Shown here piece by piece: positions 37,969-42,549 of a DNA stretch of 64,000 nt (positions are counted from its first letter, which is position 1; each line of letters begins with the position of its first letter). The stretch covers positions 1 to 64,000 of the forward strand of contig CAMBZJ010000016.1 in assembly GCA_945872365.1 (NCBI GenBank). The letters run 5' to 3'. A program made the position numbers and the translations under genes. The notes under the pieces are model-generated. The model was given only the letters and a program-made list of their open reading frames with translations, ran no database searches and was not told where the DNA came from. Origin of the DNA: Klebsiella pneumoniae (GTDB taxonomy: Bacteria; Desulfobacterota; Binatia; UBA12015).

Positions 37969-39729
37969 TCAGCGGGCGAGTTCCGCCCGCCAGGCGTCTT
38001 CCAGGCCGGCGAGTTCGTCGAGCGCCGACGCGATTCGGCCGGTCGCCTGGTGCACGCGCTCCCTCGCCTCGACGGCCGCGTGCCCGAGTGCGCCGCGCGC
38101 GTTCTCGATCACGCCGGCGAGCAAGCCGCGCGCCCGGCGGGCCAGACCGCGTCGGACCACGAACCGCAGCGCGAAGAGATAGGCCGCGAGCAGCAGGGCC
38201 GCGCTCAGCAGGAAGTCGAAGCCGGCGTAGCGTTGCTCGAGAAAACCCTCGGCGACCTTCCAGAGGACCCATGCGCCGAGCGCGTAGACCGGCAGGTCGA
38301 GCAGCCAGCCGAATCTGCGCAGCAGGCCGTGCTCGGCGGCAGCCGGCAGGTCGCGTCCGACCAGTCGCGACCAGGCCTCCGCGACCGCACCGCCCGCAGC
38401 CGTGCGCCCCTGCTCCGCATCGGGCATCCCGAGTGCCTCGGGCGAGCGGGCCAGGCGACCCGCCCGCACCCGCGCCTGCGACAGGGAGTCGGCATGCCAG
38501 GAGGCGAACTCGCCCGGGGTCGGCAACAGCGTTCCGGCATCCCCGAGACGCTGCTCCCGCCACGAGCGCTGCACCTGCTCGGCGGCGAGCGCACCGGCGG
38601 CAGTGCCGGCGGCGGCCAGCGGGTTGCGGGTGGCGAGTACCGCGCTCGCACCGAGGCCGAGCGAGGCGAGGCCCCCGGTGCGGATCGCCCAGCCGCCCGG
38701 GCCGTCCCAGCGGCGCGAGGCCTCGGCCCAGAGCAACTCGCAGACGTCGGCGCGGCGCAGCGCGAGGCGCTCGCCGACCTCCTCGGCGCAGCGCTCGCCG
38801 AGGCGATCGAAGCCGTCGCTCGCATCCTGCGGCAGCGCCTCGAGGTCGGGAGCGGCCTCGCGGCGCACCTCGTCGAAGACCGTCCCGAGCCGTGTCGCCG
38901 TACCGAGGGCGTTCAGCCGCCGGACACCGCTGATGACGCCGTCTTGGACCAGGTGCTGGAGGGCCTGGCAGAACTCGGCCCAACCCTCGGAACGCGGCTG
39001 CGACTGGGCCGTGCGCGCGCTGATCGCCAGCACCGGCGCGTCGGGGGCGCGCCATCGGCCCGCGGCCATGCCGCGGATCTGTTCGAGGATCGCGTCGCGG
39101 GATTCCGGGGTGAGTTCGTCGCTGCGGTTCAGGACAAAGATCATGTGGCGACGACCCGCGAACGCGTCGAGGAAGGACACCGAGGCCTCCTCGAGGACCG
39201 ACTGGTGGTGCAGGACCACGACCAGCACGTCGCTGCGCTCGGCGAGCGCCGTCACGGTCGCCCGGTTGCGCTCGTCGATGCTGTTCATGTCGGGGGCGTC
39301 GACCAGCACCTGGGCGGTCCAGGGTCCACTCGATGCGTCGTAGCGGGCGACTGCCACGCCCGGAGCGTCGGGTCCGGTTCCGCCCACGCCCTCGACGAGT
39401 TCGCCGAGGTCGGCGTCCTCGGGGGCATAGACGACCGGCTCGCGCGTGGTCGGGCGGTTCACGCCCTCCTGCGCGATGCGCCTGCCTGCGAGCGCGTTCA
39501 GCAGCGTGGACTTGCCCGCTCCCGTCGAACCGACGAGCGTGATTACCGCGGCCCGGTGGACGCGCTCGACCTGCCGGTCGAGATCGAGAAGCAGGCGGTC
39601 GATCTCGGGGCGGCGCCGCTCGACGGCGCGCAGGACCGCGACCTCGCCCACGTTCTCGCGCAGCCGCGCGCGCAGTCCTTCCAGGGTCGCGCGCAGGCGG
39701 GTCGTACCGTCGTCCGAGAAGGCTTTCAC
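37969..39729 (-). CDS. Dynamin-family GTPase (GTPase B of a tandem pair)
   Basis: P-loop GSTGAGKSTLLNALAG, NRPTTREP (G2), DAPDMNSI (G3), LNRSD (G4); C-terminal hydrophobic segments. Confidence 0.85.
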   Translation of the reverse strand: MKAFSDDGTTRLRATLEGLRARLRENVGEVAVLRAVERRRPEIDRLLLDLDRQVERVHRAAVITLVGSTGAGKSTLLNALAGRRIAQEGVNRPTTREPVVYAPEDADLGELVEGVGGTGPDAPGVAVARYDASSGPWTAQVLVDAPDMNSIDERNRATVTALAERSDVLVVVLHHQSVLEEASVSFLDAFAGRRHMIFVLNRSDELTPESRDAILEQIRGMAAGRWRAPDAPVLAISARTAQSQPRSEGWAEFCQALQHLVQDGVISGVRRLNALGTATRLGTVFDEVRREAAPDLEALPQDASDGFDRLGERCAEEVGERLALRRADVCELLWAEASRRWDGPGGWAIRTGGLASLGLGASAVLATRNPLAAAGTAAGALAAEQVQRSWREQRLGDAGTLLPTPGEFASWHADSLSQARVRAGRLARSPEALGMPDAEQGRTAAGGAVAEAWSRLVGRDLPAAAEHGLLRRFGWLLDLPVYALGAWVLWKVAEGFLEQRYAGFDFLLSAALLLAAYLFALRFVVRRGLARRARGLLAGVIENARGALGHAAVEARERVHQATGRIASALDELAGLEDAWRAELAR

Positions 39730-39738
39730 CCGATCCCC

Positions 39739-41532
39739 TCAGGCGCGCAAGGCGACGCGCAGGTCCTGCAGTCCGGAGGCGATCCGACCGTCCTCCACGA
39801 GCCGCTCCCGGATCCGGGAGGCCGTCTCCGGGAGCGCCCCATCCACCAGCGTGTGGGCGAGTTGCCGGCCACGCACCTCGGTCCAGCGGCGGCGGGCTTC
39901 GGACATGATGCCCGAGCCCAGCACGTGTGCGTACTTCTCGAACAGCACCGTCCCCAGGAACCCGCCGCCGACGGCCGCGAGATCGGAGCCGAAGCCGCCG
40001 GTACTGACAATGACCGCCGCCGCGAGGGCGATCGGAACGAGGGTCGCGAGGTCGGCCGCGGCCTGGATGTCGATGTCGAAGCCGCGGTCCTCGATCGCCT
40101 TCTCGACCAGTTGCTCGCAGGCGCGCTGGAACTCGGCGACGTCGGAATCCCGCATCGAGAGCCCATCGAGCGCAGCGGCCTCGGCCGAGGCGCGGCGGCC
40201 GTCGTCGAGGTCTCGGTCGAGCGAGGCCGCCACGTCGGGCGAGGCCCCCTGGCGGGCGGGATGGCGCGCCTCCCGGCCGAGGTCGCGCGCCACCTCTTCC
40301 CAGAACGACGGCCAGGCCTTGCGGAGTTCGTCGCGTTCGATCGTTCCCAGCGTGGCAGCCGGCTGTTCCTGCTTGGGATGCGGCGCGCCACGGAGCACTG
40401 CCGGCACGCTCTCGATGCCGAGCCGGATCCGCCGCAGGGTCGTCCGCCAACTGCGGCTGAGCGGGTTGCTGCGCCGGTCGAGCACCGCGCGGAAAGCGTC
40501 GACGAAGGGCCGGGCCGGCATGGCTGCAGAGGCGATGCGCATCCCGGACTCGACGCCACGGGCCTCGGCCGCCTGCAGGACCGCACCGGCGCGCTGCGAG
40601 TCGCCGGCGAGCGCGCTGCCGGTGTCGCGCAGCGCGTCGTCGAGTCGCGCCATCGCCGCGTCGACGGCCTGCTTCTTCACGAAGGCGATCTCGTCGACGT
40701 CGAACAGCACCTCGCGCAGCGGGCGGCCGCCGTCGATCGCGACCGGCGCGAGCGGCGCCGTCCCCTTCTGGACCTCGAGACTGTGCGGCGCCCAGAAGGA
40801 TGCGATCGGGCTCGTCCCGACGTCGGCTGCGAGCTTCTCGGTATGGGCACGGGCGACGTCCGCGTCGCTGGCCTCGTTGTAGACCAGCATCCACGGACGA
40901 CCGTGCTGCAGCCAGCGCTCGAGGAACGTCACCACCGCCTTGTTCTGGTAGGAGTGCCGCGTGACCACCGCGACGACCAGGTCGGCGACGGTCAACAGGG
41001 ACTCGCTGGCCAGCCGGTTGTCCTCGAGGATGCTGTCGAAGTCGGGCGTGTCGATGAGCATGAGACCGCGCGGCAGGCCCGGCTCCTCCGCGTAGAGCAG
41101 GGTCGCCGGATCGACCGCCCGATCGAGCGGTGCCCCGCTCCCGGCCGCCCCGAGCGGCTCGAGCCGAAATCGGGCCAGCGTCGGCTCGGCGCGCAGCTCC
41201 GCGAGCAGTTCGGGGTGGAGCACCCCCACCAGCCGGCGAGTCGCCCCACCGGTCGGCAGGGACGGGCTCAACAGCCGGCCGGCGAGCGCGTTGAACAGCG
41301 CCGACTTACCGGCGTTGTTCGGTCCGACGATCCCGGCGACCAGGTAAGCGTCACCACCCGCGGAGCGCGGCAGGAGGTCCCGCTGCAGGACGTCGAGGGC
41401 CGCCGCGGCGGACGGCAGCCGGTCGCGCAGCGGCAGAACCGCGTCCCGGGCCGCCCGCAGCAGCTCGGATCGCTCCATCGGAGCCATCATCGGCGCGCAG
41501 GAAACCACAGCCCCGCCAGCTGCACAACGCAT
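39739..41532 (-). CDS. Dynamin-family GTPase (GTPase A of a tandem pair; true start may be an internal Met)
   Basis: P-loop GPNNAGKSALFNALAG, TGGATRR (G2), DTPDFDSI (G3); C-terminal hydrophobic hairpin LATLVPIALAAAVIVSTGGFGSDLAAVGGGFLGTVLF. Confidence 0.85.
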   Translation of the reverse strand: MRCAAGGAVVSCAPMMAPMERSELLRAARDAVLPLRDRLPSAAAALDVLQRDLLPRSAGGDAYLVAGIVGPNNAGKSALFNALAGRLLSPSLPTGGATRRLVGVLHPELLAELRAEPTLARFRLEPLGAAGSGAPLDRAVDPATLLYAEEPGLPRGLMLIDTPDFDSILEDNRLASESLLTVADLVVAVVTRHSYQNKAVVTFLERWLQHGRPWMLVYNEASDADVARAHTEKLAADVGTSPIASFWAPHSLEVQKGTAPLAPVAIDGGRPLREVLFDVDEIAFVKKQAVDAAMARLDDALRDTGSALAGDSQRAGAVLQAAEARGVESGMRIASAAMPARPFVDAFRAVLDRRSNPLSRSWRTTLRRIRLGIESVPAVLRGAPHPKQEQPAATLGTIERDELRKAWPSFWEEVARDLGREARHPARQGASPDVAASLDRDLDDGRRASAEAAALDGLSMRDSDVAEFQRACEQLVEKAIEDRGFDIDIQAAADLATLVPIALAAAVIVSTGGFGSDLAAVGGGFLGTVLFEKYAHVLGSGIMSEARRRWTEVRGRQLAHTLVDGALPETASRIRERLVEDGRIASGLQDLRVALRA

Positions 41533-41732
41533 CCGGTCACGGGACGGAAGAACGAACGCGTGCGCGCTCCGAAACGGAGTCGACGGCGCTCGCTCGCATC
41601 ACCCGGAAGGCGCGACGACGCTTACCGATGCAGCATTGGCCGCCCCCGCTCGGCGCACCACAAAGACGTTCACGACAATTTCGTGGGGAAAGCGCATGAT
41701 TTCGCTTCCATAATATTCCATTCGTGGTAAAA

Positions 41733-41750
41733 CGGCATTAGTGAATGCCG
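41733..41750. promoter_or_regulatory. Short perfect inverted repeat in the divergent intergenic region
   Basis: CGGCATT-AGTG-AATGCCG, in a locally AT-rich stretch. Confidence 0.35.
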
Positions 41751-41808
41751 GGGCCTTCGACGTGCGCGAAGGGTGCACGTACTCCCGGCGGCAAGGAGGA
41801 GGGGATTG

Positions 41809-42480
41809 ATGGCTGTGAGGAAGACGGCTGCCCGCAGGCGGGTGGTCAAGAGGGTGGTGGGGGCAGTTCCGGAAGTCACCGTGGCGAAGGTTCGCCGACC
41901 GGCGGGTCGTCGCCGGGTCGTGGCGGTGGCGAAGTTGGTCGCAAAGCGTGCGGTGCGCCGTACGGCGACGCGCAAGGCGGTCGCCCGCAAGATCGCGGTG
42001 AAGGCCGTGCGCGTGGCCGCGGTGAAGCGCGTCGTGCGCAAGGCGGTGGCGAAGCGTGTCGTGCGCAAGGCCGTCGTTCAGCGCGTCGTCCGCAAGGCAG
42101 CGACCCGCCGTGTGGTCCGCAAGGCGGTCGCCCGGCGCGTCGTGCGCCGCGCGGTCAAGCGCGCGGTCGTCCGCTCGGCGGTCAAGCGGACCGTCGTGCG
42201 GCGCGTGGTGCGCAAGGCGGTACGTCGCGCGGTCGTCCGCAAGGTCGTTCGTCGCGCGGTTGTCCGTCGCGCGGTGCGCCGTGCGGTCGTTCGTGGCGCG
42301 GTCAAGCGCGCCGTCGTCCGCCGCGTGGTGAAGCGCGCGGTCGTGCGCCGCGCGGTCAAACGCGCCGTCATCGGCGCGGTGGTGAAGCGCGCGGTCGCCC
42401 GCAGGGTCGTCCGCCGCAGGGCGCCGCTCCTGCAGAATCTCGGCGGTCTCGACTTCGGGCGGCCTCTCGGCCAGTTCTGA
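41809..42480 (+). CDS. Extremely basic Arg/Lys/Val/Ala period-4 repeat protein of unknown function
   Basis: Strong RBS (AAGGAGGAGGGG) before ATG; repeats such as RRVVRKAVARRVVRRAVKRAVVR; only one Glu and one Asp; non-repetitive C-terminus LLQNLGGLDFGRPLGQF. Confidence 0.75.
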   Translation: MAVRKTAARRRVVKRVVGAVPEVTVAKVRRPAGRRRVVAVAKLVAKRAVRRTATRKAVARKIAVKAVRVAAVKRVVRKAVAKRVVRKAVVQRVVRKAATRRVVRKAVARRVVRRAVKRAVVRSAVKRTVVRRVVRKAVRRAVVRKVVRRAVVRRAVRRAVVRGAVKRAVVRRVVKRAVVRRAVKRAVIGAVVKRAVARRVVRRRAPLLQNLGGLDFGRPLGQF

Positions 42481-42490
42481 TTCGGATCCG

Positions 42491-42527
42491 CGAAGCGCCC
42501 CGTCGACGGATTCGACGGGGCGCTTCG
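42491..42527 (+). terminator. Perfect 16-bp stem hairpin downstream of the basic repeat gene (no T-tract)
   Basis: CGAAGCGCCCCGTCGA-CGGAT-TCGACGGGGCGCTTCG. Confidence 0.6.
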
Positions 42528-42549
42528 CCACTTCGCTCGGTGCGGCGGT

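Follow-up and report, generated by a model that had tools for sequence, protein, structure and literature searches.

A conserved, genus-restricted bacterial gene predicted to encode an arginine- and valine-rich polycation with a nine-residue repeat

On the evidence of sequence conservation, the open reading frame (ORF) at positions 41809 to 42480 of the window (the whole 64,000-nucleotide stretch of DNA analyzed here) is a real, conserved, and genus-restricted bacterial gene. Its product carries a long array of basic clusters spaced on a nine-residue unit. We consider that this protein is probably a stand-alone polycation of the H1/Hc2 type, which would bind DNA and/or RNA non-specifically and act through charge neutralization and compaction. 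What is unusual is its Arg/Val composition; in general design it follows known bacterial H1-like polycations.

The gene, its signals, and its conservation

The locus comprises the following features.

37969 to 39729, minus strand: dynamin-like GTPase 2 (context; weak LeoA match, 1.8e-8)
39739 to 41532, minus strand: dynamin-like GTPase 1 (context; divergent from the repeat-protein gene)
41728 to 41733, plus strand: possible −10 element, TAAAAC (weak; alignment of three leaders)
41749 to 41808, plus strand: conserved 5′ leader (near-invariant in the alignment of three species)
41793 to 41804, plus strand: ribosome-binding site (RBS) AAGGAGGAGGGG (same in three orthologues)
41809 to 42480, plus strand: gene for the Arg/Val/Ala/Lys nonad-repeat protein (translation, orthologues, dN/dS, ribosomal-like codon bias)
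41809 to 41928, plus strand: N-terminal segment, residues 1 to 40 (orthologue alignment)
41929 to 42420, plus strand: repeat array, residues 41 to 204, with basic pairs spaced alternately by 4 and 5 (spectrum, spacing counts)
42421 to 42477, plus strand: non-repetitive tail, residues 205 to 223, APLLQNLGGLDFGRPLGQF (orthologue alignment)
42490 to 42528, no strand assigned: perfect 17-bp hairpin separating the repeat-protein gene from the thiolase gene that converges on it (folding z = −4.9)

An earlier note on this DNA had described a 223–amino acid ORF behind an RBS, and translation agrees: the frame encodes 223 residues plus a stop, and AAGGAGGAGGGG ends 4 bases 5′ of the ATG. Across the three species, the leader is far better kept than the intergenic DNA further upstream. 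A promoter scan upstream of the gene returned no consensus site and no sigma-70–type −35 element; the possible −10 element reads TATAAC in both orthologues versus TAAAAC in the window. Downstream lies a convergent thiolase gene, for which the best NCBIfam model is steroid 3-ketoacyl-CoA thiolase. Both orthologues have 18-bp hairpins at the position matching that of the window hairpin, which is terminator-like but has no T run and is for that reason not called by the terminator scan.

Syntenic orthologues occur in both of the other genus genomes (G001 and G002). They are 73 to 75% identical to the window protein, are 211 residues long each, and keep its frame, start, and RBS. The first 12 residues, MAVRKTAARRRV, are invariant in the three orthologues, with a single synonymous change in those 12 codons. 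Pairwise dN/dS values in the coding frame are 0.37, 0.38, and 0.23, and third codon positions carry most of the differences (9/14/41 and 35/44/86 by codon position). The conserved frame, start, and RBS, together with dN/dS, indicate that the ORF is not merely a frame that stays open by chance where the DNA is rich in GC. Note that the DNA here is 70% GC and that other frames are also open. We rejected minus frame 1 as a gene: its dN/dS is 0.29 to 0.40, but it has no conserved RBS or start. We take its low dN/dS as a mirror effect, because its third positions are common with those of the coding frame.

Outside the genus, a class-wide profile search of 152 genomes found no homologue of the repeat protein. 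Three weak class hits in other families (G040, G042, and G108) were rejected because on inspection all proved to be low-complexity frames read in antisense, two of them (L008 and L009) opposite RTX-type GGxGxD repeats; L010 is the third. In a draw of 398 genomes from the phylum, among whose listed genomes G001 and G002 are absent, there was no homologue outside the genus at E 1e-6. No relative was found among the phages, plasmids, and viral contigs searched, nor did other family members have a similar protein beside the orthologous thiolase within the flanks examined. The sole distant match in genome contigs is a low-complexity Bacteroidota protein, L004 (57% identity over a segment), with no intermediates between it and the genus in the 152 class genomes or the phylum draw.

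An array with a nine-residue unit

The array had been read as having a period of four, which is wrong. Basic residues show autocorrelation peaks at lags of 9, 18, and 27, and the Fourier peak lies at 81 degrees, or 4.44 residues, with a moment of 0.273 (the maximum of 300 shuffles was 0.131). Spacings between basic clusters comprise 15 fours and 15 fives, which alternate more than in shuffled sequences (P about 0.002; range 0.001 to 0.005), so the unit of the array is nine residues, for example RRAV-KRAVV. The regular array covers about 165 residues rather than the 180 or so first proposed. The earlier note had asked whether homologues keep the period and the tail. They keep the array, with both orthologues peaking at 80.5 degrees and a period of 4.44 to 4.47 (not 4) across all three proteins, but only part of the tail.

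The repeat units are old and are more alike in protein than in DNA. The underlying DNA repeats imperfectly, in 27-nt units with about 72% matches. Synonymous divergence exceeds nonsynonymous divergence between units (pS 0.43 to 0.60, pN 0.30 to 0.39) and between codons nine apart (pS 0.48 to 0.56, pN 0.30 to 0.32). Recent repeat slippage is ruled out by this excess of pS over pN. The earlier suggestion of a repeat-expanding scaffold thus finds no support, either between units or in the orthologue lengths (223/211/211). Homologues exist, they carry a synonymous bias, and their lengths do not change out of frame, so none of these three grounds on which the note would have given up the ORF, each of which could be run computationally, tells against it.

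The spectrum also rules out reading the array as an amphipathic helix or a beta structure. The moment is 0.03 at 100 degrees and at most 0.04 at 160 to 180 degrees; in 18-residue windows it is 0.04 to 0.05 at 100 degrees versus 0.28 to 0.30 at 80 degrees. A non-repetitive tail, LLQNLGGLDFGRPLGQF, is present as described. Its proposed role as a recognition peptide has weak support: an L-x-NLG...GL...G pattern is common to the orthologues, but the ends differ.

Predicted properties and proposed function

Composition counts bear out a protein dominated by Val (65), Arg (59), Ala (41), and Lys (22), with a single Glu, a single Asp, and four Pro. Its pI is 12.0 and its net charge about +78. No significant match to it was found in Pfam, NCBIfam, PHROGs, PADLOC, or PDB sequences, and its sequence has neither a signal peptide nor a membrane segment. 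The AlphaFold2 models show a long helix but have low confidence (pLDDT 59 for the protein by itself, 64 with the three orthologues) and are too poor for structural comparison; they neither prove nor rule out disorder. Codon bias toward the genome's ribosomal-protein genes is +0.065 per codon for the repeat gene and +0.048 and +0.063 for the orthologues, compared with −0.011 to 0.086 for ribosomal and elongation-factor genes and −0.044 to −0.010 for seven other window genes, although the repeat gene's codons are themselves repeated and hence non-independent.

The reading as a compacting polycation is best supported because of the charge, the lack of a signal or membrane segment, the codon bias, and the occurrence of the nine-residue design in H1-like proteins. 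We infer nucleic acid binding, compaction, and abundance on these grounds. The protein would be cytosolic, given that its sequence has no signal peptide. Its array of about 165 residues would present one positive cluster per 4 to 5 residues, with basic pairs alternating with small hydrophobic pairs or triplets, and would neutralize the backbone phosphates of DNA, and probably those of RNA as well, whatever the sequence. The nucleoid would then be compacted through bridging and charge neutralization. The regularly placed Val and Ala residues would serve as spacers between the clusters, and they may permit helix formation upon binding or contacts between proteins.

The protein would probably act beside HU-family proteins, and it may stand in for the AAKK-tailed proteins found in relatives. 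HU-family genes are kept in all genomes sampled, and the window genome (G000) has four separate PF00216 genes, so a further DNA-compacting protein is not obviously required. The HC2 model (E up to 1) finds matches in each of the seven other family genomes sampled (G003 to G009), weak ones that fall mostly on tails of the AAKK type absent from the genus, but finds nothing in the three genomes of the genus itself. Some of the matches behind this contrast are weak (G008, with E 0.058, and L057). It is possible that the repeat protein of the genus replaced the AAKK-tailed polycations of its relatives, a correlation across one branch.

In the four HC2 matches inspected closely (L049, L052, L054, and L055), the matching region is a basic tail carried by a small zinc-finger–like protein (CVLC...C..H). 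This protein has the family-wide motif SRQxxWQRKHRAxGLCVxCSxPAYKGWRCxKHYExHKIxMRLRYIPxVRGRY, which has no Pfam match, and in relatives it carries H1-like AAKK/KKAAP tails. Two copies in the window genome (L079 731 to 1831, minus strand; L080 331 to 1341, plus strand) are without an AAKK array.

The Val-rich, Pro-poor composition differs from that of disordered H1 tails, which argues against the analogy with them. A bolder reading, which we regard as improbable, is that this array is no disordered tail and would fold on nucleic acid into a very long, DNA-coating helix with a groove-matched basic stripe. Such arrays would have arisen independently in several phyla and, in this genus, taken over from AAKK-tailed proteins. 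The stripe would turn once per ~19 residues (~28 angstroms), a figure that follows from turns of 3.6 and 4.45 residues.

Alternative functions

Polycations bind polyphosphate (polyP) as well as DNA. The protein could therefore be an organizer of polyphosphate or storage granules resembling AlgP or PhaF, binding polyP and/or tethering granules to the nucleoid, which we think unlikely. There is precedent in AlgP, a +55 H1-like protein of KPAA repeats that sits on polyP granules and spaces them, and the C-terminal domain of PhaF is homologous (PMC9239181). However, no granule genes were seen at the locus. Nor is a granule-binding part seen, because the window protein is nearly all repeat, whereas in AlgP and PhaF the repeats are joined to a distinct N-terminal region.

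Arginine-rich arrays bind RNA well, and the protein might be an RNA- or ribosome-associated polycation (a translation silencer or RNA chaperone) for which DNA binding is not primary. Chlamydial Hc2 sets an example, as it binds RNA more strongly than Hc1 does and represses translation (PMC2848022). No sequence feature of the window protein tells RNA binding from DNA binding, and the SWIB fusion of a lysine version of the array (see below) points to DNA. We judge this role to be quite unlikely.

Of the polycation functions that the earlier note had offered, compaction is the better supported, and membrane binding is weakened because amphipathic periodicity is absent both globally and in 18-residue windows. 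In its fullest form, the membrane proposal is that of a polycation that binds anionic membranes, or is membrane-active, and acts with the divergent dynamin-like GTPases. The tandem pair is indeed divergent from the repeat gene, lying on the minus strand with Dynamin_N matches of 7e-11 and 5.4e-7; GTPase 1 has no LeoA match. The repeat gene and the pair have a common intergenic region, and both the repeat protein and the dynamin are genus-only among sampled relatives: the promoter-proximal GTPase is present in every one of the three genomes of the genus but absent from the 18 other relatives searched. This co-restriction may, however, reflect one insertion event, and the repeat protein has no signal peptide or membrane segment. 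Genus restriction and a common intergenic region are insufficient for a functional link between the pair and the repeat protein, and none was found. The pair may have a defense or membrane role. We regard joint action at the membrane as very unlikely.

That the ORF is a product of repeat slippage or a chance GC-rich frame without protein function is scarcely credible, for although the array is of low complexity and other frames are open in this DNA, the orthologues have a conserved RBS and start and show purifying selection, and the excess of pS over pN marks the repeat units as old.

Comparison with known H1-like systems

The earlier note had set the protein apart from H1-type tails. In its choice of residues (Arg/Val, Pro-poor) it is indeed different, but its design is that of the H1/Hc2-like arrays of bacteria: basic residues (81 Arg and Lys) set at even intervals over most of the protein, with 1 Glu and 1 Asp. 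Chlamydial Hc2 is built on a similar rule, from pentamers in which two residues are basic and three are Ala, Val, Thr, or Pro; it condenses DNA and binds RNA (PMC2848022). Hc2 (HctB) and Bordetella BpH1, like the window protein, are nearly all repeat, with two basic and then small residues, and have a similar size (165 to 237 amino acids) and evenly spaced charge (PMC2848022). They differ in having a period of 5, 36–amino acid elements, a Lys/Ala-rich composition with Thr/Pro, and conserved flanking regions; the period of the window protein is 4.44, with spacings alternating between 4 and 5. The window protein (P0001) has no match to Pfam PF07382 (HC2), even at E 10, or to NCBIfam NF038052 or NF038053. 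For orthologue L003, the best family, insignificant, is HC2 (residues 39 to 195, 12.6 bits, E 0.14, cutoff 40). Judged by sequence models, the window protein is thus not a member of the Hc2 family.

The C-terminal domains of AlgP and PhaF are likewise long polycationic arrays, and they bind DNA. Unlike the window protein, they have a period of 4, one Lys per unit, and a Pro-rich composition, and they are attached to a distinct N-terminal region, which in AlgP is helical (PMC9239181); an N-terminal domain of this type is absent from the window protein. The mycobacterial HupB tail (PAKK/KAAK; PMC5676037) is also a basic H1-like array. However, it is a Lys/Ala/Pro tail on an HU domain (PF00216), which the window protein does not have.

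The same nine-residue spacing is found in Bacteroidota. L004 has the unit RRKVARKAV (period 4.59), and a search from it within its family gave matches in 9 of 119 other genomes. The majority of those inspected are small lysine-rich proteins with a period of 4.44 to 4.56. They form KKAA-KKAAP arrays (L083, L084, L086, L088 to L090, L093, and L095) or KKAV-KKAVV arrays (L085 and L092), a tally that leaves out L087, L091, and L094. The R/K peak of each of these arrays lies at 79 to 81 degrees, versus 81 in the window protein. All but L085 are stand-alone lysine arrays of the MATAKKAAKKAAPKK... type, 60 to 155 amino acids long, with basic pairs at a period of 4.44 to 4.53 residues; a Pfam and NCBIfam scan of two pure arrays (from L086 and L092) returned no family. 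In L085 (1494 to 1973, plus strand), the array is followed by a SWIB domain (9.4e-28), with weak matches to H1-like models. L085 is a natural link between a 4+5 array and a chromatin-type domain. A Waddlia SWIB protein occupies the whole genome by ChIP-seq (PMC6426960).

Like the window protein, the Bacteroidota proteins are small and array-based with 4+5 (nine-residue) spacing, and KKAVKKAVV is the lysine version of RRAVKRAVV. They differ in using Lys rather than Arg, in being mostly 60 to 100 amino acids long and in some cases Pro-rich, and in the SWIB domain of L085. Apart from L004, none aligns significantly with the window protein. The shared period could be a convergence of low-complexity polycations that reflects polycation chemistry alone. 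Should the window protein bind DNA, it would be an arginine/valine form of the H1-like design of bacteria, confined to a single genus and apparently kept there by selection. Such a protein would offer a clean natural test of array rules (4+5 versus 5 spacing, Arg versus Lys, Val/Ala versus Pro), and the recurrence of nine-residue spacing in unrelated bacteria suggests a common physical rule.
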